Source: Pseudonocardia sp.
Lineage (GTDB): Bacteria; Actinomycetota; Actinomycetes; Mycobacteriales; Pseudonocardiaceae
NCBI RefSeq assembly: GCF_025965585.1
Contig: NZ_JAOPWR010000117.1
Location: 1-45,623, forward strand
Direction: 5' to 3'
DNA length: 45,623 nt
In this document: positions 13,841 through 31,314 of the stretch, in pieces
Layout of the letters: every line of letters starts with the position of its first letter
How positions within the stretch are numbered: position 1 is the stretch's first letter
The notes under the pieces: model-generated
Seen by the model: the letters and a program-made list of their open reading frames with translations, nothing else
Told to the model about the DNA's origin: nothing
The model's database searches: none
Translations under genes and position numbers: made by a program

Positions 13841-14604
13841 TGAGGTTCATGGACCTGACCTGGCCCGAGATCGCGGCGCTGCCCGCCGACACCGTGGCCG
13901 TGCTGCCGCTCGGGGCGATCGAGCAGCACGGGCCGCACCTGCCCGTCTCCACCGACTACGTCACGGCGACGGAGATCGCGGCGGCGGCGGTGGACGTCGC
14001 CGAGGCCGACGGCGTGCCCGTGGTCCTGCTGCCCGGGCTGGCGTTCACCAAGTCCGACGAGCACCACGCGTTCCCGGGCTCGATCTGGCTGTCGTGGGAC
14101 ACGCTGATGTCCACGCTGGTCGACATCGGCCGCTCGCTGCAGGCGTCGGGCATCACGCGGCTGCTGTTCGTCAACGGGCACGGCGGCAACTCCGCGCTCG
14201 GGCAGGTGGCCAACCGCGAGCTGCGCCGCCGGTTCGGGTTGCGCACGTTCTTCGCCCACCCCGGCTTGCCGGTGGACCAGGGCGGCGGTGGCTCGGCGGC
14301 GTCGGAGCTCGGGATGGGGGTGCACGGCGGCCACGGCGAGACGTCGCTGATGCTGCACCTGCGCCCCGGGCTCGTGAAGATGGACCTCGCGGTGCCGAAC
14401 GTGCCGGAGGTGTTGCAGGAGTTCCAGCACATCGGGTTCGGCAAGCGCGTGTCGTTCGGCTGGACCAGCGACGACTTCGGCACCGACGGCCACGTCGGCG
14501 ACCCCACCGGTGCCACCGCGGAGGACGGCAAGCGGTTCTTCGCGGGCGCGGTGCCGCTGATGGCGGAGGTCATCGCCGAGGCCCACCGGTTCCGGACGCA
14601 GTGA
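13840..14604 (+). CDS. Creatininase family amidohydrolase
   Basis: A 254-residue metal-dependent hydrolase. The metal-site pattern of creatininase is complete: Glu and His in GAIEQHGPHLP, Asp in STDYV, His in VNGHGGN, and Glu in HGGHGETS. The family includes creatininase (cyclic amide to creatine), the FAPy formamide hydrolase ArfB, the mycofactocin peptidase MftE and keto-inosose hydrolases, all opening C-N or C-C bonds beside a carbonyl. The ATG overlaps the previous stop by one base (TGATG). It is the last operon gene; about 200 bp of non-coding DNA follow before the ArsR gene. No mycofactocin genes are nearby, so an MftE role is unlikely. A cyclic-amide ring-opening step is the most economical reading. 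Confidence 0.83.
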   Translation: MRFMDLTWPEIAALPADTVAVLPLGAIEQHGPHLPVSTDYVTATEIAAAAVDVAEADGVPVVLLPGLAFTKSDEHHAFPGSIWLSWDTLMSTLVDIGRSLQASGITRLLFVNGHGGNSALGQVANRELRRRFGLRTFFAHPGLPVDQGGGGSAASELGMGVHGGHGETSLMLHLRPGLVKMDLAVPNVPEVLQEFQHIGFGKRVSFGWTSDDFGTDGHVGDPTGATAEDGKRFFAGAVPLMAEVIAEAHRFRTQ

Positions 14605-14730
14605 GCCGCACCCTTCCGCGAACTCGGCCGACTGCCCCGCGGCCGACCTGATCGCCATGCCGCCGTGCGTCCGGCGTCCGGATCACCGCGATCATCGGGG
14701 CCGCGAACGCCCTCACGGGAATCGCAATCG

Positions 14731-14793
14731 TCAAACAGTTGGTTGACGATCGGTCGCGCGACCCGCTATGGTCATCGTCAACCGATTGGTTGA
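14731..14793 (+). promoter_or_regulatory. ArsR promoter with two palindromic operators
   Basis: Two related 16-bp palindromes, TCAAACAGTTGGTTGA (14731-14746) and TCAACCGATTGGTTGA (14778-14793), lie 47 bp apart. The second has perfect TCAACC/GGTTGA arms; the first has one arm mismatch. Between them is a promoter: -35 TTGACG (14743-14748), overlapping operator 1, and -10 TATGGT (14767-14772) with an 18-bp spacer, so transcription would start inside or next to operator 2. The arrangement is that of a classical autorepressed ArsR promoter. Binding is inferred, the repeats are seen. Confidence 0.65.
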
Positions 14794-14803
14794 GGTGATG
14801 CTC

Positions 14804-15166
14804 GTGCCGGACCAGCTCTCCAAGGTCTTCGCCGCACTGGCCGACCCGACCCGCCGCGACCTGGTGGCCCGGCTCGCGGTCGGCGACGCCACGGTGGGGC
14901 AGCTCGCCGCCCCGTACGACGTGTCGGTGCAGGCCGTCTCCAAGCACATCAAGGTGCTCCAGGACGCCGGCCTGGTCCGGCGCGACGGCACGTCGCACCG
15001 GCGGCCGGTGCACCTGGACGCCGAGGTCTTCGACCTGGCAACGGCCTGGATCGAGCGCTACCGGCGCCGGGCGGAGGAGCGCTACCAGCGCCTCGACGCC
15101 GTCCTGGCCGCGATGAACGAGAACGACCCGGAAGCCGACGAACGACACGAAGGGACCGCATCATGA
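14804..15166 (+). CDS. ArsR family winged-helix transcriptional regulator
   Basis: A 120-residue ArsR regulator of the non-metal type that precedes SRPBCC genes. The opening LSKVFAALADPTRRDLVARL is the family hallmark; the recognition helix is in YDVSVQAVSKHIKVLQDAGLV. No CxC metal-binding motif is present, so it probably does not sense a metal through the usual site. GTG 14804 is preferred because GAGGTGAT at 14792-14799 sits 8 nt upstream. ATG 14798 is only 2 nt from that sequence, and ATG 14768 lies inside the -10 box. The stop overlaps the next gene (ATGA). It likely represses itself and the two downstream genes through the paired palindromes. Confidence 0.85.
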   Translation: MPDQLSKVFAALADPTRRDLVARLAVGDATVGQLAAPYDVSVQAVSKHIKVLQDAGLVRRDGTSHRRPVHLDAEVFDLATAWIERYRRRAEERYQRLDAVLAAMNENDPEADERHEGTAS

Positions 15167-15645
15167 CCTCGTCCACCGCAGCCCGTATCGAGGCCGACCC
15201 GACGGTGCCGATCATCCGCATCGTCCGCGACTTCGCGGCCACCCCCGCCCAGCTGTTCCGGGCCCACACCGACCCGGACCTGTTCCGGCAGTGGGTGGGG
15301 CCGAACGGGATGGACACCCGGATCCTGCACTGGGACGCCCGCAGTGGCGGCAGCTGGCGCTACGTGGCCGGCCGCGACGGGGCCGAGTTCGGGTTCCACG
15401 GCACCTTCCACGACGTGCGGCCCGACCGGATCGTCCAGACCTTCACGTTCGACGGCGACCCGGACGGCGTCGCGCTGGAGACCCTGACGTTCGAGGACCT
15501 CGGCGACGGTCGCACGCGCCTGCACGCGCAGTCGCTGGTGGAGAGCTTCGAGAGCCGCGACGCGTGGCTGCGCAGCGGCATGGAGACCGGTATCGCAGAG
15601 GGCTACGCCAAGCTCGACCGTCTCGTGGCCGATGGCAGTCTCTGA
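15163..15645 (+). CDS. SRPBCC/AHSA1-domain protein
   Basis: A 160-residue START-fold protein of the Aha1/CalC-like subgroup. Typical features are IVRDFAATPAQLFRAHTDPDLFRQWVGP near residue 20, then GGSWRYV, HGTFHDVRPDRIVQTFTF and a C-terminal helix GMETGIAEGYAKLDRLV. These proteins form a deep hydrophobic pocket and bind or modify small ligands; the substrate is unknown. Its gene overlaps both neighbours, a standard ArsR-SRPBCC module in actinobacteria. Confidence 0.83.
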   Translation: MTSSTAARIEADPTVPIIRIVRDFAATPAQLFRAHTDPDLFRQWVGPNGMDTRILHWDARSGGSWRYVAGRDGAEFGFHGTFHDVRPDRIVQTFTFDGDPDGVALETLTFEDLGDGRTRLHAQSLVESFESRDAWLRSGMETGIAEGYAKLDRLVADGSL

Positions 15646-16228
15646 GCCGTCGCGCCGGCACCGGGAGGTCGCGGGCGCGTTCGGTGAGCGGGTCCTCGGC
15701 ACCGCGGACTGGGATGCGCCCGCCCCGGTTGCCGGCTGGCGGGCCCGCGACGTCGTCGGCCATCTGACGGAGTGGTTCCCCGCCTTCCTGGCCGCGGGTA
15801 CGGGGATCGAGCTGCCACGTCCCGCGGGCGCGGACCCGGTCACGGCGTGGACCGCGCACGCGGACGCCGTGCAGGCGCTGCTCGACAACCCGGCGTCCAC
15901 GCAGCGGGTGCTCCGCAACCCGCACCTCGGCGAGGTGCCGCTGCTCGAGGCCGTCGACCGCTTCTACACCTCGGACGTGTTCATGCACACCTGGGACCTG
16001 GCCCGCGCCACCGGCCAGGACGACCGGCTCGACCCGGAGTTCTGCGCCGGGCTGCTGGCCGGCATGGAGCCGATGGAGCAGGTCATCCGGTCCTCGGGCC
16101 AGTACGGCCCGCGGGTGCCGGTGCCACCTGGCGCCGACCCGCAGACCCGGTTGCTCGGCTTCATCGGCCGCGACCCGTCGTGGCAGCCGGGCGACGTGCC
16201 CAGGCCAGGTACTGCCGGAACCGGCTGA
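15632..16228 (+). CDS. DinB/maleylpyruvate isomerase-like protein (TIGR03086 type)
   Basis: A 198-residue four-helix-bundle protein. The presumed metal-binding His residues lie in DVVGHLTEWFPAF (about residue 47) and in the segment FYTSDVFMHTWDLARATG (about residues 110-127), which is highly characteristic of the TIGR03086/mycothiol-dependent maleylpyruvate isomerase N-terminal fold. Related enzymes use mycothiol as co-substrate, which would fit an actinobacterium. The ATG overlaps the SRPBCC gene by 14 bp, so it is the third gene of the ArsR operon. The reaction is not known. Confidence 0.78.
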   Translation: MAVSEPSRRHREVAGAFGERVLGTADWDAPAPVAGWRARDVVGHLTEWFPAFLAAGTGIELPRPAGADPVTAWTAHADAVQALLDNPASTQRVLRNPHLGEVPLLEAVDRFYTSDVFMHTWDLARATGQDDRLDPEFCAGLLAGMEPMEQVIRSSGQYGPRVPVPPGADPQTRLLGFIGRDPSWQPGDVPRPGTAGTG

Positions 16229-16380
16229 TCTCGCCGAGCCCGAGGTGTCCTCCGGCGTGGTCGAGGGGCCACCTCGATGGCCGGATACTGGCGGAGTGCC
16301 ATGTCCGCCCGCTGACGATCCGGTGTGTCTGTTTCCGGTGGGGTCGCCGGCATCCCGCTGCCGGGCGGTAGAGTTTCGTT

Positions 16381-16789
16381 GCGGACGAGCTGGCCGGGCG
16401 GCCGCGGCGGAGCTCTCGAGCTCCGCCGAGGAAAGTCCGGACTCCGCAGGGCAAGGTGGTTGTCAACGGCAACCCGGGGCGACCCGCGGGACAGTGCCAC
16501 AGAGAACAAACCGCCTCCCGTGCAAGCGGGCGGTAAGGGTGAAACGGTGGTGTAAGAGACCACCAGCACCCCGGGTGACCGGGGTGGCTAGGTAAACCCC
16601 ACCCGGAGCAAGGTCAAAAGGGTCCCGTCCTCGGACGGGACCTGCGCAGGCGTTCGAGGGCGGCCCGTCCGAGCCTGCGGGTAGACCGCTCGAGCCCACC
16701 GGCGACGGTGGGCCTAGATGGATGGTCGCCGAACGGTGCGCCGCAAGGCGCCCGGGAACAGGATCCGGCTTACAGGCCAGCTCGTCCGC
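16381..16789 (+). ncRNA. rnpB: RNase P RNA, bacterial class A
   Basis: Catalytic RNA that trims the 5' leader of tRNA precursors. Ends are set by helix P1: GCGGACGAGCTGGCC (16381-16395) pairs perfectly with GGCCAGCTCGTCCGC (16775-16789). Other landmarks are the P3 hairpin with 10-bp arms around CTCG (16405-16428), conserved GAGGAAAGTCCGG (16428-16440), ACCCGCGGGACAGTGCCACA, the P10-P12 region GGGTGAAACGGTGGTGTAAG with AGAGACCACC, CAAGGTCAAAAGGG, and the core AGATGGATGGTCGCC (16716-16730). A -10-like TAGAGT (16369-16374) lies about 7 nt upstream of the 5' end. The 3' strand of P1 doubles as the insertion site of the downstream island, which restores a complete RNA. Confidence 0.96.
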
Positions 16790-16792
16790 CCC
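16764..16792 (+). repeat. attL-like direct repeat at the rnpB 3' end
   Basis: 29-bp segment ending 3 bp beyond rnpB that recurs at 25901-25929 with 26 of 29 identities. The last 16 bp, CCAGCTCGTCCGCCCC (16777-16792), are identical; the three differences are in the left part (TTACAGG here, TTGCAAA there). Overlap with the end of a structural RNA gene and adjacency to an integrase gene are the standard signs of an attachment site. No flanking similarity extends past the repeat. Confidence 0.78.
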
Positions 16793-16892
16793 AACCCTGT
16801 GAGCTGCAGGAACGGCCTTGATGGTAGTCCGTAGGGCGCATCTGGGGCACATGAGCTCTCGATCTCGTCCGGAGTGATCACCAGCGGACCGT

Positions 16893-18177
16893 TCAGCGGT
16901 GACGCTCCGTGGTCGAGCCGAGAACGGAGTCGATCGCCTCACGGGTCCGGTCGTCCGAGTCCGGACAGAGGTGGGCGTAGGTGTCCAGGGTCTCGGCGGC
17001 GGTGGTGTGCCCGAGCCGGCGCTGCACGGTCTTGATCGACTCGCCGTGGCGGATGAGCAGCGAGGCGTAGTAGTGCCGGAGGGTCGTGGAAGCCGGTCCC
17101 GCGAGGCGCGCGGACCGCCGCGACGGCCGGGCGCCAGACCTCGCGCGAGAACGCGGTGCGTCGCAGGGCCCGCCCGTCCTCGTCGGTGAAGACCAACCCG
17201 TCAGGACGGATCACCGGGTACGTCCGTAGGTGCTCTCGGAACGCCGCGGTGACGACGTCCGGTGGCGGCACCGAGCGGTGCGAGGCCGACGTCTTCGGCG
17301 GCGCGAGGAAGGGATCGCGACGGGGGAGCAGGATCAGCTGCTGCTCGACGCGCAGCGTCCGGCGGTCGAGGTCGAGGCCTTCGTCCACGATGCCGAAACA
17401 CTCGCCCTGGCGCAGCCCGGTGCCGGCGGCGAGGACGACGAACGCGCCGTACCGGTCCGGAACGGCGTCGATCAACGCTTCGACGGTGGCCGTCGTGAGT
17501 GGCGTGATCTCCACGGGCAGCTTCTTCGGCAGCTTCGTGCCCTCGCACGGTGAACCGCCTTGAAGATCGCCGCGACGATGCCGTGGATGACCTGGACGGT
17601 CGCAGGGGACAGGTTGCGCGACAGACCGGTGACCCAGGCCTGCACCTCGCTGGCACGGATCGTGCCGAACCGCCGGTGGCCGAAGGCCGGGTAAGGCGTG
17701 CTGCCGCAGGTTCGTCTTGACGTGCGCCCGTGTGGTCGGGCGATGGACATGCGGGGCGCGCCAGTCCTCGGCGTGGTCGCGGAAGAGCGTCGGATCGTTC
17801 GGGTCGACGTAGGTGCCGTGCACGAGGTCGGCTGAGACGGTGGCCAGAAAGCGCTCGGCGTCGACCTTGCGCGGGAAGGATCGCTTGCGCTGACGGCCGG
17901 CGGGGTCGCGCCACCGGGCGAGCCAGGAGTCGGTGCCAGCCTGGACCCGCTTCTGAACGCTCCCCACGCCGGCCGCCCGCTCAGGCCACGCCACGCCGTC
18001 GGAGAGTGAGGCGAACCAGGCCCGGACGTCGGCGGGGTCGTAGTGCTCGTAGCGGCCGACACGGCGGCCGCGCGGCCCGTACCCGTGGTAACGCCACTGG
18101 TCGAGCGTGGTAGCGGGTACGCCGAGGTACTCCGCCACCTCGCGCACGCCCCACAGCGGTTCGTGCTGTTCGCCCAT
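16893..18177 (-). pseudogene. int: Tyrosine integrase with N-terminal excisionase-like HTH, frameshifted
   Basis: From ATG 18177 (GGAGG 6 nt upstream) the product starts with a MerR/AlpA-type HTH: LWGVREVAEYLGVPATTLDQW, then GRYEHYDPADVRAWFASL. About 70 residues in, at 17967, it runs into an integrase N-terminus (GSVQKRV, WLARWRDPAGRQRKRSFPRKVDAERFL). The usual arrangement is a separate xis then int, so the fusion may itself be a lesion. The frame breaks near 17690 (continuation PAFGHRRFGTIRASEVQAWV in another frame), returns near 17550 with a probable short deletion, and breaks again near 17080, where one extra base disrupts the HDLRHYY box. Catalytic boxes are still readable across frames: TGLRQGE (Arg), H..LRH, and LGHTTAAETLDTYAHL (Tyr). 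Reassembled, it would end at TGA 16893-16895. An active enzyme is unlikely. Confidence 0.82.
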
Positions 18178-18266
18178 GTCTGCCTCCGGTGTCGGCGGGA
18201 TCGTGTCGCTGTCGGAGGTTTCGCGCGCGGCGCTGCGGCGGCGTGGTCGGACTGCTGTCACGTTCC

Positions 18267-18722
18267 GTGGCCACGTCTACCGATTCGTGGTCGAAGCGTG
18301 TGCTTGTCGGTACCGGCGCCAGCGCGGGTGAGGGTCCGTCCGACGCAGGGGATCACCAGGCGGGTCAGGACGGCGACGGGCGGAGCATCGAGGTCGTGTG
18401 GAACTCGTCTACGGGCATGACGGCCTCGGTCGAGTGCCCCGACGGCAAGTTCGCGGTCGGCGGCGGTGTCGAGGGCCCGACCAACACGTCGTCGAGTCCC
18501 GTCATCGGTGCCCCGCTCGCTTTCCCGGGTCGGGGCCAGAACCCCTGGATGGCGACGAGCATGCCGACCGGGCGGGGTATCCCGGTGGCCAACCAGGACT
18601 TCGACTTCGGGTCCGGCGAGTTCAGCACGCCGGCCGGAACGGCGAGTGCGCCGACCGGCTGGTACGGCCAGACGACGAACACCCCGGGTGGGACGCGGGT
18701 CTTCGTGATCTCCTCGGACTAG
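18267..18722 (+). CDS. Hypothetical protein, secreted-type C-terminal domain
   Basis: The last about 105 residues look like real protein: VECPDGKFAVGGGV, then a Pro/Gly/Ser/Thr-rich run, PTGWYGQTTNTPGG and a closing strand TRVFVISSD before TAG. This pattern (Cys-Pro-x-Gly, Ala-x-Gly-Gly-Gly, P-x-G-W, V-F-V) is seen in small exported actinobacterial proteins of unknown function. The N-terminus is unclear: the frame is open from 18189, a GTG is available at 18267, but no signal peptide or good Shine-Dalgarno is visible, so the gene may be 5'-truncated by its neighbour, the divergent integrase. I do not recognise a function. Confidence 0.35.
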   Translation: MATSTDSWSKRVLVGTGASAGEGPSDAGDHQAGQDGDGRSIEVVWNSSTGMTASVECPDGKFAVGGGVEGPTNTSSSPVIGAPLAFPGRGQNPWMATSMPTGRGIPVANQDFDFGSGEFSTPAGTASAPTGWYGQTTNTPGGTRVFVISSD

Positions 18723-18819
18723 ACGACGTGCCGCGACGAGGGTGATCCAGGGGGCGCGTGGCTGCGGCGTGGTCTCAGGGCAGCAAGATATGCAAGAAGG
18801 CATGCTTTTGAGGTCAGGA

Positions 18820-18838
18820 CGGGAACGGGGCGTTCCCG
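18820..18838 (+). terminator. Hairpin with 8-bp perfect stem
   Basis: CGGGAACG / CGTTCCCG with a GGG loop, about 100 bp after the stop of the hypothetical protein gene and directly before the transposase remnant. It could terminate the former or be an end structure of the decayed insertion sequence. There is no T-run. Confidence 0.35.
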
Positions 18839-18842
18839 GGTT

Positions 18843-18910
18843 CATTGCCGGGCGTACAACACCGAGCGCATTCAGGCTCGGCTCAGCTGGCTCTGCCCGA
18901 TGAGTACTAA
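18843..18910 (+). pseudogene. IS3-family transposase remnant (C-terminal tail)
   Basis: Reading from 18843 gives HCRAYNTERIQARLSWLCP, closely resembling the end of IS3/IS150-group OrfB transposases, where YN.ERIQA.L is followed by S/CP.EY and the stop. Here a one-base shift after the CP leads to DEY and TAA in the next frame at 18908-18910. No upstream DDE catalytic domain or terminal inverted repeats remain in reading distance. It marks past insertion-sequence activity in the island. Confidence 0.5.
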
Positions 18911-19054
18911 GCGTGCAGGCTGTCGGACATGATCTGTCGTTGGTGCCCGCTCCTAAGCTCGCCGCGGTGACCCGGCCCAAAGACAGTGGCCCGGCGTCTC
19001 GGCTGACCGCGAGCCTCTCTGTCCCCGATGTGAAGGCTCGGACGCCCGCTGCAC

Positions 19055-19711
19055 CTACTCGTCGCTGTCGCGCGCGGGCTTGCCGGGTTGGGGGAAGGGA
19101 CGGCCGTCACGGGCGGCTTCGACGACCGCCCGGGGTCAAGACCGTTCCGGCGGGCCAGGCCAGCCGGGTGAGCTTCCGCAGGCCGGCTGGGGCGCGCTCG
19201 GTGCCGTCGGCGGGCTCGGCGTTGATGTCGGTGAGCAGGCGGTCCAGCAGGACTGCCAGGAGGAGGTGTCTGTTGCGGTGGTCACCCCAGCCGAGGTCGT
19301 CGCCAGGATGGGTGGGGGCGGGGTAGAGGTACCCATCGGTGGTGCGGATCCAGATCGGCCGGTCGAGGACGACTTCGGCGAAAGCGCTGGTCGCTGGCAG
19401 TTGCGTGGGAGACACGGTCCGGACTCGCCCACCGGTGCGTCGCACGACTGGGGCGTCGGTCAGCGGGTCGAGGAGTGCGTCGTCGCCGTCGCGGAGGTCG
19501 AGCCGGACGAACTGCGCGGTCCGCGCCTGGGCTGGTTGCAGACGCGCGATCCACTCCTGGCCGTGCGGGCTGTCAAGGTTGATCTCGATGGTGCCGGAGA
19601 ACGGGAAGTGCCGCCCGCCATCCCAGGCCATGGCTTGCCCGACGCAGGCCTGGGACAGAATGTCCTCGCGCCCGAGCAGTTCCAACCAGCCAATCCGGCG
19701 GGTGAGATCGG
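19055..19711 (-). pseudogene. Hypothetical island protein, frameshifted
   Basis: The minus strand reads as plausible protein from about 19711 (RRIGWLELLGREDILSQACVGQAM, FSGTIEINLDSPHGQEWIARL, RPIWIRTTDGYLYPAP, GDDLGWGDHRNRHLLLAVLLDRLL). It has mixed hydrophobic and acidic composition, unlike the Arg/Pro-rich antisense frames. Near 19120 the frame appears to shift: one frame stops at 19107, while another continues EAARDGRPFPQPGKP and RDSDE to a TAG at 19055-19057, a more natural end. No start codon with a Shine-Dalgarno is evident upstream of 19711. I do not recognise the family. Confidence 0.4.
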
Positions 19712-19881
19712 GTCCGCGCGCTGCTGCGGGATCACCGGGGACACGCCGCGACCAGCGGCAACGCCGCCCCGACGGCGGCCGTCGCCACCGCACCGGTGGC
19801 GGCAGCGCCCGTACCGGGCCGGTGCAACCCGCCCTGTCGCCGGCTGACCGCCGCCCGCCGACTGCGGCCGGTGTGGAGCGA

Positions 19882-19945
19882 CGTGAAAGTGAGAGTGACG
19901 GCGCCGGCGAGATGAGAGTGGCCGCGCCAGAGGAATGAGAGTGGC
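19882..19945. repeat. Short repeated GAGAGTG elements, possible insertion-sequence end
   Basis: ATGAGAGTGGC occurs at 19912-19922 and 19935-19945, exactly 23 bp apart, preceded by a related AGTGAGAGTGAC near 19888. Repeated short motifs of this kind occur at the ends of some insertion sequences (IS21-like elements have multiple terminal repeats), but no transposase is attached. Between about 19712 and 20191 I see no other supportable gene. Confidence 0.3.
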
Positions 19946-20191
19946 AATGAGACGGCCTTCTGGGGAGCGCGGGGAGAGCCCGTACAGGGCTGCCTGGACC
20001 TGCGAACGCCGCGCCGAGCCGCGTGATGAGACCCGAGCGGTGGACCGGGCCAACATCAACGGCGCCCGATCCAGCGGCTTCTTCGCCAAGCGTCCTGCAG
20101 CAGCCGGGCGTAGCTGACGGCAACCGTGTCCTATGCCGCGCGAGTGGCCGTCACGTAGGAAGGCTCGCTCATCCGACCGCGGCCTCGTCTC

Positions 20192-20485
20192 TCAGCTTCT
20201 GCGGGCGTGGACGAGCCAGGCTGCGGAGTCGGACAGCACGCCCTGGTCGGTGCAGTGGTCGGCGAGGCTTGAGCGGAGGCGCTCATGCGCGCGTGCTCGC
20301 GTTTCGGGATCAAGATCGCGGACCATGCCCGCGTACTGCGTGGAGAAGTATCCGAAGACGTCATCGGGATCGGGACCGAAGTACATGGGCTGCTGCACGC
20401 CCTCGAGTTCGACGTCGGTGAACCCGGAGACGCCCAGGAACGACCGAACCCTGTCGGGATCGCCGAGTGCGACCGGGCTCGGGGC
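20192..20485 (-). pseudogene. SAM-dependent methyltransferase, C-terminal remnant
   Basis: About 96 residues reading TAPSPVALGDPDRVRSFLG, GFTDVELEGVQQPMYFGPD, DDVFGYFSTQYAGMVRDLD and a final helix to AAWLVHARRS. The segment ALGDPDRVRSFLGVSGFTDV is the usual end of UbiE/class I methyltransferases, where a cap helix precedes a last beta strand. The SAM-binding N-terminal half (GxGxG) is absent; upstream sequence in all three frames is Arg-rich and lacks the motif. It is therefore a truncated relic. Between 20486 and 20772 nothing else is supportable. Confidence 0.5.
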
Positions 20486-20772
20486 CGTCGGACCTCGCTC
20501 GCGTGTCGATATCCCCAGCGCGGTGTTCGAGCGCTCGGCGGCGCCGCATTCGCCGCGGGCGTTGCGACGGGCGGTGGCACGCCGTTGGTGTGGTCGGACG
20601 AGCCGAACCATGATCCCGGAAACGGGCACGAAGGAATCCTCGCGGTGCGGCGGATTCTGCGGGACCGTGGGCCCCCTGGCAACTGTGCCCGGCAGTGGTG
20701 ACGGGGAGCGTGCCCGACAGCGACGATGCGCATCCAGGAGACACCCGCACCTCGCGAGGAAAGCGGACTGTT

Positions 20773-21384
20773 ATGAGCGATTCGGATACGGGCGTCACGG
20801 TGGCGTCCTCCGGCATGGCCGGTGCTACGTCGAACGACATGGGGCGGAGCGAGGGCGGGATGCCCCGGCTCTCGGCGATCACGTTGAGAGTCAACGATCA
20901 GGAGCGGCGTCTCGACGTGGATCCACGGACCTCACTGCTCGACGCGCTGCGCGAACATCTGCACCTGAGCGGAACCAAGAAGGGGTGCGATCACGGGCAG
21001 TGCGGCGCCTGCACGGTGCTGATCAACGGCCGGCGCGTCAACTCCTGCCTGACGCTCGCGGTGATGCACGAGGGCGACGACGTGGTGACGATCGAAGGCC
21101 TGGGCGATCCCGAGGGCCTGCACCCCATGCAACTCGCCTTCGTCGAGTGCGACGGATTCCAATGCGGCTACTGCACTCCCGGCCAGATCTGTTCGGCCGT
21201 CGGCATGCTCGCCGAGGTGGAGGCGGGTTGGCCCAGCCACGCCACCGCTGACGTGGCCTCGCCGCGGGTCACGTTGACCGATGCGGAGATCCGCGAGCGG
21301 ATGAGCGGAAACATCTGTCGTTGCGCCGCCTATCCGAACATCGTCGCGGCCGTCCGGAGCGTGGCGGGAGGCGACCCGGGATGA
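20773..21384 (+). CDS. Aldehyde oxidase/xanthine dehydrogenase-family [2Fe-2S] subunit (PaoA-like)
   Basis: A 203-residue iron-sulfur subunit of a molybdenum hydroxylase. The N-terminal plant-type [2Fe-2S] ferredoxin site is [21 protein letters not shown] (residues about 75-95, four Cys), and the second, helical [2Fe-2S] site is CGYC and CRC (in [11 protein letters not shown] and [11 protein letters not shown]). Together they wire electrons from molybdenum to FAD. The first about 35 residues are an extra hydrophilic extension with no twin-arginine signal, unlike E. coli PaoA (YagT), so the complex should stay in the cytoplasm. ATG 20773 has AGGAAAG about 10 nt upstream. The stop overlaps the FAD subunit start. 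Confidence 0.9.
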
Positions 21385-22364
21385 GGCCTTTCACCTACGA
21401 ACGCGTGACGGACGCGCAGGCCGCCGTGGCCGCGGTTTCTCGGCGCGGCGCGAAGTTCATCAGCGGCGGCACCAATCTGCTCGACCTCATGAAGCTCGAC
21501 ATCGAGCGGCCCACCCATCTGGTCGACATCAGCCGGCTTCCGTTGCGGGACATCGAGGAGCTGCCGGACGGCGGACTGCGGATCGGCGCCCAGGCGGCGA
21601 ATTCCGACGTGGCCGCCGATTCCCGGGTGCGCACCCGCTATCCGGTGCTGTCGCAAGCGCTGCTGTCCGGCGCCTCGGGCCAGTTGCGCAACAAGGCGTC
21701 GATCGGCGGAAACCTGTTGCAGCGCACTCGCTGCCCCTATTTCTACGACACGGCCGCGGGCTGCAACAAGCGGGATCCCGGATCCGGATGCTCGGCGGTC
21801 GGCGGGTTCAACCGGATACACGCGATCCTCGGCGTCAGCGACTCCTGCATCGCCACCCACCCCTCGGACATGGCCGTCGCGTTGGCCGCGCTGGAGGCAC
21901 GGATCGAGCTGCTCGACGCCGACCAGTCGGTACGCAGCGTCGCCGTCACGGACTTCTACCGACTCCCGGGCGATACCCCGCACATCGAGACCGAGCTGCG
22001 GCCGGGCGAGATGATCACGGGCGTGGTCCTGCCGCCGCCCCCACCGGGCCGGCAGCACTACCGCAAGGTGCGCGACCGGGCGTCCTACGAGTTCGCGCTG
22101 GTCTCCGTGGCGGCTGTCGTCTCGGCCGATCAGGAAACGATCGGTGAGGCGCGGGTGGCGTTCGGTGGTGTGGCGCACAAGCCGTGGCGGTCGGTCGAGG
22201 CGGAGGCCGCGTTGGCCGGCCGTCCGGCCACGATGGCCACCTATCGCGCCGCCGCGGAGGCGGCATTGCGCGATGCGGTGGGGCAGGGGGACAACGACTT
22301 CAAGATCGAACTGGCCAAGCGCACGATGTGCCGCACGCTGGCGCACGTGGCCCAGGCGAGTTGA
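21381..22364 (+). CDS. Molybdenum hydroxylase FAD-binding subunit (PaoB-like, extra Fe-S Cys)
   Basis: A 327-residue FAD subunit. FAD-binding signatures are [16 protein letters not shown] (near residue 30) and [18 protein letters not shown] (near residue 115); the CO_deh_flav_C domain occupies roughly residues 215-325. Four Cys in the insert [18 protein letters not shown] and [11 protein letters not shown] match the [4Fe-4S]-binding loop known from E. coli PaoB, which separates this group from ordinary xanthine dehydrogenase FAD subunits. ATG 21381 overlaps the upstream TGA. It works with the genes on both sides as one heterotrimer. Confidence 0.9.
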
Positions 22365-22374
22365 GGAAGGCGAA

Positions 22375-24606
22375 ATGATCGGGCAATCCGTGAACCGCGT
22401 CGACGGCCCGTTGAAGGTCGCCGGCCGCGCCACCTACGCCTACGAGCACTGGGAGGGCGGCCAGCCGCTCTACGGGTTCATCGTCGGGGCGACGATAGGT
22501 AGAGGCCGCATCACTCGGATCGAAACCTCCCGCGCCGAACGCTCACCCGGGGTGCACATGGTGATGACCCATCACGACACCCCGGCGCAGGGCACCCCCG
22601 ACCTCTCCATTCCCTTCGAATACTGGCGCGCCTACCCGGTGCTGAGCAGTCCCGACGTTCACCATTACGGTGAGCCCGTTGCGCTCGTCGTCGCCACGAC
22701 CTTCGAACAGGCACGGGCGGCGGCCGATCTGGTCGACGTCGAATATGCCGGCGGGTCGGGCTCCTACGACTTCGCCGCCTGCGAAGATCAGGCATACGCG
22801 CCGGATGGTCTGGCTTACGGCATCATCCCGACCGACACCACCGTGGGCGATATCGATGCCGGGTTCGACTCCGCCCCGGTCAGGATCGATGTGCGCTACA
22901 CGACGCCGTACGAGCTCTCCCAGCCCATGGAACCGCATGCATGTCTGGTGGTACCGGACGGCGAGGACCTGATCGTCCACGTCAGCACGCAGATCGTCGA
23001 CGCGGCGCGCTCCTCGATCGCCGGCACGCTCCAGATCGACCCGGAGCGGATCCACATCGTCACCCCGTACGTCGGCGGGGGATTCGGCTCCAAGCTGCGA
23101 ATCCACGCCGAGACGATCCTGGCGGTGTTCGCCGCCCGCGCGTTGCGCCGGCCGGTCAAGGTCGCGCTGACCCGGCAGCAGATCTTCCATCTCACCGGTG
23201 TGCGACCCAGATCGAGCCAGCGGGTGCGATTGGGCGCGCAGCGGGACGGGCGGCTGGTCGCGATCGCGCACGAGGTCACGATGCACACGAACCGCCACTC
23301 GGAGTACATCGAGCCGACGGCCGCCACCACGCGCAGCCTCTACGCCGCGCCGCACCGGTTGACGAGCCACCGCCTGACCCCGCTGGATCTGCCGCGCGGG
23401 GAAGACGTCCGCGCGCCGGGCGAGGCACCGGGCCTGCTGGCGGTGGAGTCGGCGATGGACGAGCTGGCCGGTGCGCTCGGGATGGACCCGGTCGAGCTGC
23501 GGACCCGCAACGAACCCACCACCGATCCCGAGCGAGGCGTGCCGTACAGCGACCGGCACCTGGTCGACTGTCTACGCGAAGGCGCGCGCCGGTTCGGCTG
23601 GGAGCGCCGCCCCGCCACGCCGGCGAGTGTGCGCGAGGGGCCGCGGTTGGTCGGCTACGGCATGGCCGCGGCCATCCGCGGACACCTCCAAGCAGCGACA
23701 ACGGCGCGGGTGCGGTTGGCGGCGGACGGCACCGCCGTCGTTCGGACGGACATGACCGACATCGGCACCGGCACCTACACCATCCTGACCCAGGTCGCGG
23801 CCGACGGGCTCGGGCTGCCGCTCGGTCGGGTGCGGGTCGAGCTCGGGCGTTCCGAGTATCCGGTCAGCCCGGGGTCCGGTGGCTCGTGGGGCGCCGCCAA
23901 TTCGAGCACCGCGGTGCATCGCGCGTGCGAGGCCCTGCGCGAGAAGCTGGTGGCAACCGCGCGCAACGATGCGCGCTCCGCACTGCACGGCCTGGATCCA
24001 GCCGGTGCAAAGTTCTCGGATGGCATCGTGAGCATCGATGGCGTGTCCGATGCGCTGAGCGAGATCGTCGCGCGCAACCATCCCGACGGTGTGGAGGCGG
24101 AGGGCGAGACCCTCGCCATGACGGACGACCCGAACTACCGTGACTACGCCTTCCACACCTACGGCGCCCACTTCGCCGAAGTGCGCGTCGACGCCGACAC
24201 CGCCGAGATCCGTCTGCGGCGGATGCTGGGCGTGTTCTCGGTCGGTCGCGTGCTCAACGCCAAGACGGCGCGCTCGCAGCTGATCGGGGGCATGATCTGG
24301 GGCGTCGGCGCGGCCCTCGAGGAGGAGGCCGTCGTCGACCCGCGATCCGGTGCCTTCGTCACCCGGGATCTCGCGCAGTATCTGGTGCCGGTCCACGCCG
24401 ACGTCCCCGACGTCGACGCCCTCGTCCTCGACGGGTACGACGACAAGGCCAACGTCCTGGGCGCGAAGGGCCTCGGTGAGCTGGGCATCTGCGGGGCCGG
24501 CGCGGCGGTCGCGAACGCGGTGTTCAACGCCACCGGGGTGCGCGTGCGCGACTTCCCCATCACCCTCGAGAAGGTGCTACCCGGTCTGCCATCCCTGGAG
24601 ACGTGA
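22375..24606 (+). CDS. Molybdenum cofactor-binding aldehyde oxidase large subunit (PaoC-like)
   Basis: A 743-residue catalytic subunit carrying molybdopterin. Landmarks: VNRVDGPLKVAGRATYAYE at the start; GEPVALVVA; PMEPHACLV; TPYVGGGFGSKL (cofactor contact, near residue 235); a segment DVRAPGEAPGLLAVESAMDELA (near 345) contacting the cofactor; DIGTGTYTILTQ; SGGSWGAANSS; and GAKGLGELGICGAG near residue 705, where the Glu is the conserved catalytic base. Length is normal for the PaoC/YagR group. Enzymes of this group oxidise aromatic and other aldehydes to acids. AGGAAGG lies 6-10 nt before the ATG. No XdhC/PaoD-type maturation chaperone gene is in the window, so it must be supplied from elsewhere. 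Confidence 0.91.
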   Translation: MIGQSVNRVDGPLKVAGRATYAYEHWEGGQPLYGFIVGATIGRGRITRIETSRAERSPGVHMVMTHHDTPAQGTPDLSIPFEYWRAYPVLSSPDVHHYGEPVALVVATTFEQARAAADLVDVEYAGGSGSYDFAACEDQAYAPDGLAYGIIPTDTTVGDIDAGFDSAPVRIDVRYTTPYELSQPMEPHACLVVPDGEDLIVHVSTQIVDAARSSIAGTLQIDPERIHIVTPYVGGGFGSKLRIHAETILAVFAARALRRPVKVALTRQQIFHLTGVRPRSSQRVRLGAQRDGRLVAIAHEVTMHTNRHSEYIEPTAATTRSLYAAPHRLTSHRLTPLDLPRGEDVRAPGEAPGLLAVESAMDELAGALGMDPVELRTRNEPTTDPERGVPYSDRHLVDCLREGARRFGWERRPATPASVREGPRLVGYGMAAAIRGHLQAATTARVRLAADGTAVVRTDMTDIGTGTYTILTQVAADGLGLPLGRVRVELGRSEYPVSPGSGGSWGAANSSTAVHRACEALREKLVATARNDARSALHGLDPAGAKFSDGIVSIDGVSDALSEIVARNHPDGVEAEGETLAMTDDPNYRDYAFHTYGAHFAEVRVDADTAEIRLRRMLGVFSVGRVLNAKTARSQLIGGMIWGVGAALEEEAVVDPRSGAFVTRDLAQYLVPVHADVPDVDALVLDGYDDKANVLGAKGLGELGICGAGAAVANAVFNATGVRVRDFPITLEKVLPGLPSLET

Positions 24607-24752
24607 ATCGGCGATGCCGGACCTGGGACGCCGGCCCTGGGGATGCGCGCCCAACCCGCGAGGGATGCAGGCCAGACCGCGGCCGGCGTAATGAGCAGTC
24701 CGTCGAAGCCGGGGCGGCTGCGGGTGACTGCCCACTCTGCCACCTGCCGCGA

Positions 24753-25046
24753 GAGGTCGTCCGGGACGGAACCGAGCCGGTGGCCTGGCCGTCGCACCGC
24801 GATCCCCGAAACTGGACAGGCTTCCGGCCGGCGGCGGCCGGGGAGCGTCGGATCGAGGACATCCCGTTGCGGGAGATCGGCAATGCCATGCGTGCCGCTG
24901 TCGTCGCCTCAGCAGGCATGGATCGTGATGAGCTCTACGCCGATGCCTTGCGCACCTTCGGTCTGATCCGACGGACCCAGGCGGCCGTGGCCAGGCTTGA
25001 TCAGGCTGCTGCGAGCGTCATTGCCCTGCAGGAATACCACCCTTAG
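24753..25046 (+). pseudogene. C-terminal remnant of a DUF3320-type helicase-like protein
   Basis: In the frame ending at TAG 25046 the sequence reads NWTGFRP, then RRIEDIPLREIGNAMRAAV, MDRDELYADALRTFGLIRR and ARLDQA, which resembles the small C-terminal domain of large DUF4011/DUF3320 superfamily 1 helicases (an Ile-x-x-x-Glu-Ile-x-x-Ala-Met helix followed by a Leu/Phe-Gly helix). The helicase motor is missing. The upstream residues are low-complexity. The last bases meet the truncated end of the glycosylase fragment on the other strand, indicating a recombination scar. Confidence 0.4.
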
Positions 25047-25454
25047 ATCGGTCATCAGGTCGAGCAGCTCGACCAGTGGTTCGACGCCGAGATCGAGTTG
25101 CGCCGGCTTCGGGGCGGCGTTGATGTACCAGGGGTAGGCGTTCCATGGCGTCACGTCGGCCGGCGTCATCCCTGCCTCGGTGAACAGCTCCAGCTGCCGC
25201 TCGGCGGTCGGATCGTCGTTCTCGATGCACAGGAACCCCGAACCCGAGCCGGCCTGGGTGGCCGGGCCTGGATCGCGGAGGACGCTGAGGACGCCGGCAT
25301 GGATGCCGCGGTGCAGCGGGGCGACGTGCGGCATCCATCCCCGCACGTCGTCGCGCAGCGAGTCGACGAGCTCGTTGATCGGTTTGACGTGTGGCGCGTA
25401 GCGATCGGCCTCTTGTGCCGCGCGGAACGCAGGATCGGACATTCTTCTCGTCAT
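25014..25454 (-). pseudogene. Uracil-DNA glycosylase, N-terminal fragment
   Basis: From ATG 25454 about 147 residues read as an actinobacterial uracil-DNA glycosylase: YAPHVKPINELVDSLRDD, HAGVLSVLRDPGPATQAGSG, GFLCIENDDPTAERQ, VTPWNAYPWYINAAP and DLRVVFLQGNDA. These include the water-activating/uracil-pocket loop and the NAYPWY segment, but the chain loses similarity at about 25014, before the C-terminal DNA-intercalation His loop. The following frame is antisense to the helicase remnant. It is therefore a 3'-truncated, probably inactive copy. Confidence 0.6.
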
Positions 25455-25999
25455 CGGGCCAGCATGTCGTGCCCGCGGGCTCGACGCACCGGCGTCACCA
25501 GAACTGCGACACCACATGGCTCGGGGTGGTCGTGCGCCGTCAGGTCCGCTGGGTGTCGGCATGGTCCATGCCGAGTATCCGCTCGCGGTCGAGTAGCAGG
25601 CCATGCCCGCTCGTCTGCCGTCAGTTGCAGGAGCCCGCGGGCCGCACCCTACGGCGAGTCCAGCTCCGGGGGGTGCCGTGGTGGAGAACTCGGATGGGTT
25701 GTCGTTCGCCGGTAGCCCTGCCTGGTGGCCGAGCCCTGTTCGATCTGCTGGGGTTGTGGCTGTTTCAGCAAGATCACGGGGCACGAATGGCACAAGCCGT
25801 CGAGACGTCGCGAGAGACGTCACTGACGACTGGGCACATCGGAGCAGCTCAGAGGGGTTGTTGCGAAGCCATCGCAAACCTCGACAACGACCGAACTCGC
25901 TCCGGCTTGCAAACCAGCTCGTCCGCCCCGCGTCCAGGATGCGGCCCGACGCAGAACATCGTCGTCGTGGTCGACCAGGTGCCCCTAAGGTCGAACCCC
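25455..25999. other. Gene-free right end of the island and host junction
   Basis: About 545 bp without a supportable gene. It contains the right att-like repeat (25901-25929) and, just inside it, two GAGACGTC-like octamers near 25800-25820 that could be recombinase or excisionase contacts (speculative). After 25929 the sequence leads directly into the SRPBCC gene. Confidence 0.5.
25901..25929 (+). repeat. attR-like direct repeat
   Basis: Partner of the rnpB-end repeat: 26 of 29 positions match, with the 16-bp core CCAGCTCGTCCGCCCC at 25914-25929 identical. It retains the last bases of helix P1 and the CCCC that follows rnpB, but not the rest of the RNA. It marks where the original chromosome downstream of rnpB resumes. 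Confidence 0.78.
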
Positions 26000-26464
26000 G
26001 TGTACACGACGCAGATCACCGGCCACGTCGACGCCCCACGACCGGCGGTCTACAGAGCGCTGCTCGACCCGACGGCCGTCGCCAGGTGGCGGGTCCCCGA
26101 CGGCATGAGCGGCCATGTGCACCACTTCGACGCCCGCGAGGGCGGGGCGTTCCGGGTCTCGCTCACCTACGCGGTGGAGGGGACGGGCAAGTCGGACGCA
26201 CACACCGACACCTACCACGGCCGTTTCGTGAAGCTCGTGCCCGACGAACAGGTCGTGGAGGAGTTCGAGTTCGAGACGGCGGAGCCGGGGCTCCGCGGGA
26301 CGATGACGATGACGACGACGCTCACCGACGCCGACGGCGGAACCGACGTCCTTGTTCTGCACGAGGGGATCCCCGACGTCGTCCCTGCCGCCGACAACGA
26401 GACGGGCACACGGATGGCCCTGGCGAACCTCGCCGCGCTCGTGGAGGCGAACCGGTCGTCCTGA
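26000..26464 (+). CDS. SRPBCC/AHSA1-domain protein
   Basis: A 154-residue START-fold protein. Family features: ITGHVDAPRPAVYRALLDPTAVARWRVPDGM at the N-terminus, then a beta-rich middle (GGAFRVSLTY, TYHGRFVKLVPDEQVVEEFEF) and a C-terminal helix TRMALANLAALVEANR. GTG 26000 was chosen because it places the first strand right after the start and AAGG lies about 10 nt upstream; other in-frame GTGs further up are in poor sequence. It binds an unknown small ligand. It is not part of an ArsR module here. It is the first host gene after the island. Confidence 0.75.
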   Translation: MYTTQITGHVDAPRPAVYRALLDPTAVARWRVPDGMSGHVHHFDAREGGAFRVSLTYAVEGTGKSDAHTDTYHGRFVKLVPDEQVVEEFEFETAEPGLRGTMTMTTTLTDADGGTDVLVLHEGIPDVVPAADNETGTRMALANLAALVEANRSS

Positions 26465-26477
26465 GCCGCCCTTCCCG

Positions 26478-26512
26478 CTGCGGCGGTGCGGTCGTACCCG
26501 TCACCGCCGCAG
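26478..26512. terminator. Bidirectional terminator hairpin
   Basis: Perfect 11-bp inverted repeat CTGCGGCGGTG / CACCGCCGCAG with a 13-nt loop in the 57-bp gap between the convergent SRPBCC and PabAB genes. Serves both strands. Confidence 0.62.
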
Positions 26513-26521
26513 CAGGGACGG

Positions 26522-28678
<2,157 letters not shown>

Positions 28679-28973
28679 GCCGTCCCTTCCAGGGGAGCTC
28701 GCTGAACGGTCGAGCACCGCCGGGGCCTGGGCGGTGGTGGGTGATACGTCGCCTACCTCCGACAACGAGGGGATATCGCCGCGGATATGTCGGATCTGCC
28801 GTGCCGTGGAGCGGGGGAGCGCACGTCGGCCGGGCCCGGTGTCGGTCTCCGTGCAGGTCTGCAGGGGTACTGAGGTCTCGCGGCCCCGACCGGGGAGTCG
28901 ACCCTCGGCGAGGACGCCGACCAACGCTCGGGGCCGCCCGTCGTCGGTGACGGTCGGAAGAGACGGTGGAACC

Positions 28974-29000
28974 CGATCACCGTATCGGCCCCGGTGATCG
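28974..29000 (-). promoter_or_regulatory. Leader hairpin upstream of pabAB
   Basis: Perfect 9-bp inverted repeat CGATCACCG / CGGTGATCG with a 9-nt loop. On the minus strand it lies 27 nt after the stop of the 12-codon leader ORF and about 300 nt before pabAB. It could act as an attenuator or pausing hairpin. There is no T-run after it, so simple intrinsic termination is doubtful. Confidence 0.4.
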
Positions 29001-29026
29001 CACCGTCCCACGGGGTGGCGTGCCGA

Positions 29027-29065
29027 TCACTCCGGTTCCGCGTGGGCGGCGACCAGGAAGCGCAT
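29027..29065 (-). CDS. Candidate 12-residue leader peptide upstream of pabAB
   Basis: ATG at 29065 encodes MRFLVAAHAEPE and stops at 29027-29029. A strong Shine-Dalgarno GAGGAG (29079-29074) lies 8 nt upstream, better than that of most genes here. It starts about 390 nt before pabAB on the same strand and is followed by a 9-bp hairpin. The peptide has no Trp or run of identical codons, so classical tryptophan attenuation is not supported; another upstream-ORF mechanism or a chance ORF are both possible. Confidence 0.35.
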   Translation of the reverse strand: MRFLVAAHAEPE

Positions 29066-29177
29066 CGAACATTCTCCTCGTGAACGGCTGTCGGTACACC
29101 GCACATCGAACGGTGGGGGGAGCTCCGTTACCGTGCGCAGGATATTCGTCCGTTCGGATACACAATCGGAGGCACGG

Positions 29178-29969
29178 GTGTCGCACGAGGACGTTCTCGT
29201 CTGGGACGGGACGGCCCTGCAGGGGTCCGTCGCCGGAACCGAGCTGCTCGTCGCCGATTCCTGGCTCGTCGACGACGGCGCGGTGGCGGGCCTGGAACGC
29301 CACCGCGCGCGTTTCGTCGGGGCGTGCACGGCCGCCGGCGTGTCTATCGACCACGCCATGCGATTCATGGACGCGGTGCCCGGTCACCTGCCGCTGACCG
29401 GCAGGCTCTTCCCCCGCGTGGAGTACGGCCCCGGGCCCGGCGGGCTCGAGCTGCGCCTGCGGGTGCGGCCCGCGCCCCCCACCACCGAGACGGTCGTGCT
29501 GGCGCCCCACCCGGGCCCCGACCCGCGCCGCGCGCCCCGCACGAAGGGGCCCGACCTCGAGATGCTGGGCGGCGTCCGCGCGCAGGCCGCCGAGCTGGGG
29601 GCGGGGGAGGCCGTGCTCTGCACCGAGGACGGCACCCTGCTCGAGGGCGCCTACAGCTCCGTCGTGTGGTGGCGCGGTGACACGCTGTGTCTACCCGACG
29701 CCGAGCTCCCGGTGCTCGACAGCGTCACGCGCGGCCGTCTGGTCGACGCCGCTGCGCAGCGTGGCGTGGCGGTCCGGCACGAGCGCGTCACCCCCGCCGA
29801 TCTCGACGGCCTGGAGACGTGGTCGCTGAGCGCGCTGCACGGCATCCGCGCGGTCACGGGCTGGCGGGGCTGCGAGGTCCGCACCGGAGCCGTCGAGAGG
29901 GCTCCGCTGTGGCGCGAGGTCCTCGCCGCCGAGGCCGTCCCCCTGGTCCGGGCCGGTCAGCCCGCCTGA
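29178..29969 (+). CDS. pabC: Aminotransferase class IV, PabC-like (aminodeoxychorismate lyase)
   Basis: A 263-residue fold-type IV PLP enzyme. The Schiff-base Lys is in APRTKGPDLE (about residue 135); other landmarks are EAVLCTEDGTLLEGAYSSVVWW (Glu pairing the PLP ring nitrogen and the phosphate loop) and the terminal SLSALHGIRAVTGW that replaces the usual NS..G.. loop. GTG 29178 is chosen because GGAGG (29168-29172) is 5 nt upstream. It would remove pyruvate from aminodeoxychorismate to yield p-aminobenzoate. It sits back to back with fused PabAB, so the pair forms a complete PABA-making unit. Branched-chain or D-amino acid transaminase are alternatives by fold. Confidence 0.78.
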   Translation: MSHEDVLVWDGTALQGSVAGTELLVADSWLVDDGAVAGLERHRARFVGACTAAGVSIDHAMRFMDAVPGHLPLTGRLFPRVEYGPGPGGLELRLRVRPAPPTTETVVLAPHPGPDPRRAPRTKGPDLEMLGGVRAQAAELGAGEAVLCTEDGTLLEGAYSSVVWWRGDTLCLPDAELPVLDSVTRGRLVDAAAQRGVAVRHERVTPADLDGLETWSLSALHGIRAVTGWRGCEVRTGAVERAPLWREVLAAEAVPLVRAGQPA

Positions 29970-30115
29970 CGACGACCGCAGCACGTCGCCCGGCCGGCGG
30001 CCGGCGCGCGCACGCCGAGAACGGGGTCGGCGGGCGGGGGCAGCCGATCCGGGCCGAGATGCGGGCGAGCTCGGCGTCGTCGGAGATGCCCTGGAGGTCG
30101 TGGCGCGGCGTGTAG

Positions 30116-30240
30116 GGCCCCGACGACGTCCTGCTGGGGTACCTGTGGCGCATCGACCCCGGCGAGGAGGGGGCGGGCCCGGGCACCCGGCTGCTCGACA
30201 TCGTCATCGACGGCCTCCGCGCGGGCGCGCCGACCTCGAT
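30116..30240 (+). other. Coding-like fragment in the pabC-GH172 gap
   Basis: Within the 277-bp gap after pabC, one plus-strand frame reads PDDVLLGYLWRIDPGEEG and RLLDIVIDGLRAGAP, hydrophobic-helix-like and faintly reminiscent of TetR-family C-termini. It has an in-frame TAG at 30113-30115 immediately upstream and no start codon. It may be a relic of a regulator, or chance. The GC-rich GGCCGGCGGCCGG near 29990 could be the pabC terminator. Confidence 0.2.
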
Positions 30241-30246
30241 GTACCC

Positions 30247-31314
<1,068 letters not shown>

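Follow-up and report, generated by a model that had tools for sequence, protein, structure and literature searches.

Among non-coding RNA genes, those for transfer RNA (tRNA) and transfer-messenger RNA (tmRNA) are the well-known landing sites of integrative elements. In the known tyrosine-integrase islands, as portions of two published accounts describe them (PMC4383910, PMC12424338), the integrase lies beside its target, the target is restored, and the displaced fragment is found at the far end. According to the 2025 TIGER/Islander text, the integration sites were 33.8% tRNA/tmRNA, 43.4% protein-coding, and 22.8% intergenic, and neither rnpB nor RNase P is mentioned in it (PMC12424338). Extra homologues of ribonuclease P (RNase P) RNA, possibly horizontally acquired, are reported for two mycobacteria (PMC9569102). 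The stretch analyzed here, hereafter the window, is a 45,623-nucleotide contig of Pseudonocardia sp. (NZ_JAOPWR010000117.1, assembly GCF_025965585.1, positions 1 to 45,623 of the forward strand), in which the RNase P RNA gene rnpB is followed by a 9.1-kb island. An initial annotation, made from the sequence alone, had proposed an integrative island at the 3' end of rnpB, and the present analysis supports this proposal, mostly through relatives of the locus. The island very probably arose by site-specific integration catalyzed by a tyrosine recombinase, with rnpB as the bacterial attachment site (attB) and with helix P1 of the RNA kept, and what is now seen is an old integrative element or its remains. 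As an integration site, rnpB was not found in those parts of the open full-text literature that were searched, and an earlier description may exist elsewhere.

The rnpB gene, which is single-copy in the genome, encodes a class A RNase P RNA at 16386-16788 on the plus strand (Rfam RF00010, 291.2 bits, model positions 1-367 of 367) and serves at its 3' end as the attachment site. The proximal attachment-site copy (attL, 16764-16792, plus strand) includes the 3' strand of P1 and is identical at 26 of 29 positions to the distal copy (attR, 25901-25929, plus strand). The two copies are spaced 9137 bp apart, and their 16-bp identical core CCAGCTCGTCCGCCCC has two occurrences in the window, on the plus strand at 16777-16792 and from 25914. 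The 29-bp repeat is well above background, as the runner-up place in the window matches at 20 of 29 positions on the plus strand and the best place on the minus strand at 21 of 29. We thus reproduced the positions and the identity of the repeat, its core, and its 9.1-kb spacing as initially annotated. The 3' strand of P1, GGCCAGCTCG, occupies 16775-16784. The earlier statement that the repeat begins inside this strand is true of the 16-bp core, whereas the 29-bp repeat begins 11 nt upstream of it. Against the 5' strand of P1, 10 of 10 positions are paired for the proximal copy and 8 of 10 for the distal copy, in agreement with the earlier suggestion that the insertion rebuilds an intact P1. 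ARAGORN found no tRNA or tmRNA gene in the window, and the island therefore falls outside the class of tRNA- and tmRNA-gene islands, its target being rnpB. Beyond the gene, 19 nt past the CTC of P1, lies TGAGCTG (16800-16806, plus strand), an instance of a junction motif, TGA[CG]C[TA]G, that is found with the same spacing in most relatives. This heptamer is probably an integrase-binding site of the element arm, as predicted from the sequence.

To place the window in its genus, 62 Pseudonocardia genomes were compared. The rnpB gene was detected in 58 of them (fragments only in G046), and rnpB with up to 15 kb of downstream DNA was read at 57 loci, the window included, several of which end early at contig ends. 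A related integrase is present at 10 of these 57 loci. Seven of the ten, among them the window, are of type A, with the integrase directly after rnpB on the minus strand, and three (G007, G040, and G044) are of type B, with the integrase adjoining the distal copy at the far end. At seven of the 57 loci, the rnpB end recurs downstream with 24 or more of 28 positions matching, every other best place reaching at most 21. P1 is fully paired, wobbles included, at all 55 loci that could be read, the other two of the 57 being unreadable.

An empty site was found for the type B element of G044, the distal copy and following DNA of which match G005, a genome where no element is seen. From the rnpB end into the downstream DNA, 36 of 36 bases are identical between the two genomes; a diverged stretch follows, and then 88.6% identity over 552 bp. 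The rnpB copy of G044, GACCGACTCG, gives perfect P1 pairing, and its distal copy, GACCGGCTCG, gives one wobble, the same as in G005. By this match, the site of the G044 element is seen unoccupied in G005, a sister species; the element lies in the same genus as the window's island but belongs to another lineage. A candidate empty site for type A, G021 compared with G037, was rejected: G021 is about 6.3 kb longer between rnpB and the shared flank, and its distal end is too worn. As this pair gives no base-exact junction, the empty-site demonstration rests on G044 and G005, that is, on the type B lineage. Elsewhere in the genus, locus L082 (G053) has a 2.7-kb interval after rnpB, placed between two identical 28-bp rnpB ends and containing one long open reading frame (ORF) for a DUF3754 protein; no related integrase was found in this interval.

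The association of the integrase with rnpB extends far beyond Pseudonocardia. Named genomes were scanned with four type A integrases, and the best 80 of 198 relatives were kept. The rnpB gene lies no more than 1.2 kb from the integrase in 54 of these 80 and 1.6-4.5 kb off in four others. In 47 of the 54, the integrase gene (int) and rnpB face each other with their 3' ends, which is also the arrangement in the window, and seven are oriented otherwise. The 54 loci represent 12 named actinobacterial orders and 16 named families, a count that omits one locus labelled Bacillus, the record of which is marked UNVERIFIED_ORG; one further locus is labelled Dormiibacterota, many are metagenome-assembled, and four are Pseudonocardia genomes of the genus set. 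The search for other integrases adjoining rnpB at the same site, which had been suggested as a check, thus returned the same kind of junction in many relatives. The description of rnpB as an uncommon target, in turn, does not hold within this integrase family, where rnpB is the commonest target seen. A third arrangement, without the exact junction motif, was observed at L107, L111, L117, L120, L123, L124, and L152, where the integrases lie downstream of rnpB and point away from it.

More distant relatives of the integrase mostly do not use rnpB, as judged from two further samples. In a phylum sample, three of 396 genomes had the integrase at E 1e-110, and one of the three loci was beside rnpB. 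In a sample of the window's family, a match at E 1e-80 was obtained for 21 of 297 genomes, and among 24 loci read with 1.5-kb flanks, the two best-scoring were beside rnpB and 22 were not, three of the latter having a tRNA-Tyr gene. The two rnpB loci of this sample agree with L089 and L104 in rnpB identity and E-value and are apparently from the same genomes. The use of rnpB is clustered on a tree of 94 rows built by a quick method, where 11 changes account for the type A label, compared to a shuffle mean of 32, and a Streptomyces tRNA-Tyr group is separate; the tree omits the partial sequences L121, L138, L157, L162, and L163, and its L147 row is an artificial long branch to be ignored. At L136, L139, L140, L143-L146, L148, L150, L155, and L162, the 3' end of int was observed no more than about 1 kb from where a tRNA-Tyr gene starts, with no adjoining rnpB. 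Phages and plasmids gave integrase matches below 60% identity only, and the integrase had no rnpB end beside it in any of the five records read, four from phages and one from a plasmid.

The junction between rnpB and the integrase side was also conserved. Within one mismatch, TGA[CG]C[TA]G starts 19-20 nt past the CTC of P1 in 35 of 39 parsed loci with the facing arrangement, two of which have rnpB 1.6-1.7 kb off; ten more loci were left unparsed by the script, and most of these show the motif by eye. Because the motif resembles the rnpB segment ACAGGCC in inverted orientation, we took both as predicted integrase core-binding sites. When 39 loci were scanned over up to 10 kb, distal copies matching at 24-30 of 31 positions were found in six. 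Two of these six copies, at L092 and L114, are followed at the same spacing by a second TGACC-like motif, with one mismatch in the former and none in the latter, as though another rnpB element were stacked behind the first.

Sequences expected of the element's own attachment site (attP) were found in viral contigs. A relative of the integrase is present in 41 such contigs, and the ends of 16 were read; in five of these, the contig stops no more than 51 bases from the match. In L207, L210, L211, L213, and L215 (five of the 16), rnpB-end-like sequence lies 73-97 bp from the integrase match and is preceded by other DNA. This sequence, standing without the rest of rnpB, is attP-like, although about 56 nt of rnpB are still recognized by the profile in L211. 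The junction motif lies beside the attP-like site at the same spacing, exact in L213 and with one mismatch in L210. In L201 and L237, rnpB itself is beside the integrase, like integrated copies. The exact pattern of one rnpB end was absent from the viral contigs, the attP-like sites of which carry other rnpB ends.

The type B loci reveal a second integrase lineage at the same gene. In the element of G044, RepSA is clear, an FtsK-like match is weak (below the cut-off), and an integrase is present. These genes point to actinomycete integrative and conjugative elements (AICEs), which are known as tRNA-site elements; the site of this second lineage is instead at rnpB. With an alignment of three AICE-type integrases as query, 64 of 297 family genomes were matched and 30 loci were read. 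The rnpB end stands right after int at the six best-scoring loci, two of them in query genomes and four in other genera, and is lacking at the other 24. In all six, rnpB and int share a strand and are 6-19 kb apart. With int at the far end from rnpB, the AICE-type lineage is missed by a simple scan for an integrase next to rnpB. A hairpin signature, CCCCGC-CTCC ... GGGGGAGCG, was seen directly after rnpB at six genus loci: L067, L048, and L077 (G044, G040, and G007, respectively), which have the AICE-type integrase, and L042, L036, and L032 (G030, G008, and G054, respectively), where no integrase was seen. Repeats of ACGGCCC in G007, G008, G040, and G044 resemble integrase arm sites. Of eight loci at which the sequence after rnpB was folded, three were well beyond shuffled sequences and five were not, and the hairpin is only a candidate terminator.

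These comparisons suggest the following course of events in the window. In its circular form, the element would have carried about 20-30 bp of rnpB 3'-terminal sequence adjoining the 3' end of int, like the five viral contigs. On one side, the integrase would bind the rnpB end (ACAGGCC..CTCG), and on the other the CTGACCTGC-like motif of the element, roughly its inverted repeat; strand exchange in the identical core would join rnpB to the element. In this way, rnpB would keep a complete P1 and 3' tail, and the displaced end would go to the far side. Later, the integrase acquired at least one frameshift, and self-excision was probably lost.

The island between the two copies (16793-25900) has a guanine-plus-cytosine (GC) fraction of about 0.68-0.70, compared to 0.73 on either flank. 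Its integrase is broken. Using tblastn with an open relative, we located it at 16920-18261 on the minus strand, recognizable over 16920-17967 and preceded by an N-terminal HTH_17/MerR-like domain at about 18006-18147. The match to the relative runs in frame -3 over 17967-17083 and then in frame -1 over 17081-16920 (91% identity). The integrase ORF at 16939-18261 (minus strand) shares one reading frame with the HTH_17 match (22 bits, cut-off 27), and the Pfam family Phage_integrase was not detected in it. With at least one frameshift in the integrase, the island is probably unable to excise by itself and is probably a fixed relic. The tyrosine integrase of the initial annotation is therefore correctly placed beside rnpB but is not an intact gene.

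The central part of the island is an operon for a PaoABC-like three-subunit molybdenum aldehyde oxidoreductase (20695-24606), the reading frames of which are open. It comprises, all on the plus strand, a PaoA-like 2Fe-2S subunit at 20695-21384 (PF01799 and PF00111; NCBIfam PaoA, 308 bits, cut-off 322), a flavin adenine dinucleotide (FAD) subunit at 21321-22364, the start of which is perhaps near 21382 (PF00941 and PF03450), and a PaoC-like molybdenum subunit at 22375-24606 (NCBIfam PaoC, 841 bits, cut-off 1180). It is followed on the plus strand at 24603-25046 by a C-terminal fragment of an anti-phage ProA-like protein (NF058533, 33.5 bits, cut-off 1500; 72 residues, model positions 1831-1902 of 1903), which is probably a relic and may be the remnant of a defense gene in the island. 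Pfam and NCBIfam gave no match for the ORFs at 18189-18722, 19107-20123, 20192-20629, and 24909-25877. In all, nine island ORFs were searched against these two databases, and neither a phage structural family nor a RepSA or FtsK-like family was found, which leaves the island outside the AICE class. Eight island ORFs were sought within about 15 kb after rnpB in the 56 other genus genomes, several of these stretches being limited by contig ends, and none was found. Two observations that would have spoken against an island, namely synteny of the region across the genus and both repeat copies in island-free strains, were accordingly not made.

Several results nevertheless weigh against this reading of the window. 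The distal copy is mismatched at three of 29 positions. For 22 of the 80 integrase relatives, the stretch read lacks rnpB; 11 of these 22 have tRNA-Tyr within 1.5 kb (ten from Streptomyces, and L162) and 11 have neither gene. The check proposed initially, that relatives should have rnpB followed directly by the sequence after 25929, failed for the window: the DNA of 25930-28660 and the PabB protein were searched in the 62 genus genomes, together with 56 rnpB loci, and no genome has rnpB followed directly by 25930 onward, although the window's empty site could have been missed since some contigs end shortly after rnpB. G034 is the one genome that also has pabB behind rnpB, but 4.4 kb of different DNA separates the two, so the neighborhood has been altered in other ways too. 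Finally, homologues of PaoC (76-91%) are present in five of the 61 other genus genomes, and the PaoABC stretch (about 20754-24619 in the window) recurs in five genus genomes at 80-87% DNA identity with differing flanks; in the 8-19 kb around it in those five, neither rnpB nor an rnpB end was found, and the operon alone is shared with window positions 14000-31000.

The occurrence of PaoABC in other surroundings marks the operon as accessory, and it may be a separate travelling cassette rather than cargo of the element. The earlier view that everything between the copies is accessory or decayed holds, with the qualification that this operon is open and perhaps a cassette of its own. A composite origin is hence a serious if tentative alternative, to which we give somewhat less than even chances: one rnpB element would have supplied the integrase end and the attachment-site copies, PaoABC and other genes would have arrived separately, and the 9.1 kb would not be one unit. 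ORFs of different kinds and the ProA-like fragment surround PaoABC, and the apparently stacked junction motifs behind two of the six distal copies in other genera fit such a history. The repeat, however, still brackets the whole stretch, and GC is slightly low throughout.

It is improbable that the junction motif is native to the chromosome after rnpB and that integrases merely settled beside it. The motif is exact at 21 of the 57 genus loci, compared to about 0.2 expected (hand calculation, equal base use), and a type A integrase is present at only seven, some loci being limited by contig ends; among these seven, moreover, the motif is exact in five, has one mismatch in G023, and is lacking in G018. 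Yet the viral contigs L213 and L210 have the motif beside an attP-like site without rnpB, and the motif is lacking in genus genomes where no element is visible, for example G005 and G037. The number of genus loci with the motif suggests that traces of earlier elements persist at many rnpB loci that no longer show an integrase. That no integrase was involved, the distal copy being an rnpB fragment left by ordinary duplication or recombination, is very unlikely: the missing window empty site and the broken integrase would suit it, but the copy spans the segment used by relatives, the motif is correctly spaced beside rnpB, and a match of 26/29 at 9 kb, beside an rnpB-type integrase, is far above the runner-up.

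We therefore retain site-specific integration at rnpB for the window. Taking all loci together, we lean toward a broader conclusion, namely that rnpB serves throughout Actinomycetota as a standing docking site for two or more integrase lineages, probably separately evolved (that of islands and viral contigs and that of the AICEs), with int on opposite sides, and that each integration swaps the 3' flank of rnpB (including a strong hairpin in some AICE-type cases) together with some or all of the P1 3' strand. If this is true, the 3' end of an essential ribozyme is repeatedly exchanged with mobile DNA, with selection keeping P1 paired. An essential single-copy ribozyme gene would then be a conserved attachment site that marks where cargo is to be expected, and its targeting would help to explain the variable DNA downstream of rnpB. 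The gene could also serve as an integration site for genetics in non-model actinobacteria, and whether RNase P RNA works with a 3' end supplied by an element becomes testable.

With respect to known systems, the integrases of Arthrobacter phage Kukla and Gordonia phage Schmidt belong to the same broad family (36-37% identity over most of the protein), but unlike in the rnpB family, no rnpB end was found beside them. The gene set of pSAM2-type AICEs, RepSA, an FtsK-like protein, and an integrase, matches the G044 element, whereas the window island has none of these genes except the broken integrase. The tyrosine-integrase islands described previously share with the window island the integrase beside the target, the restored target, and the displaced fragment at the far end, and differ from it in that the target here is rnpB. 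The class of mechanism is thus well known and the target is the unusual part, the shared site being a non-coding RNA gene other than those for tRNA and tmRNA.

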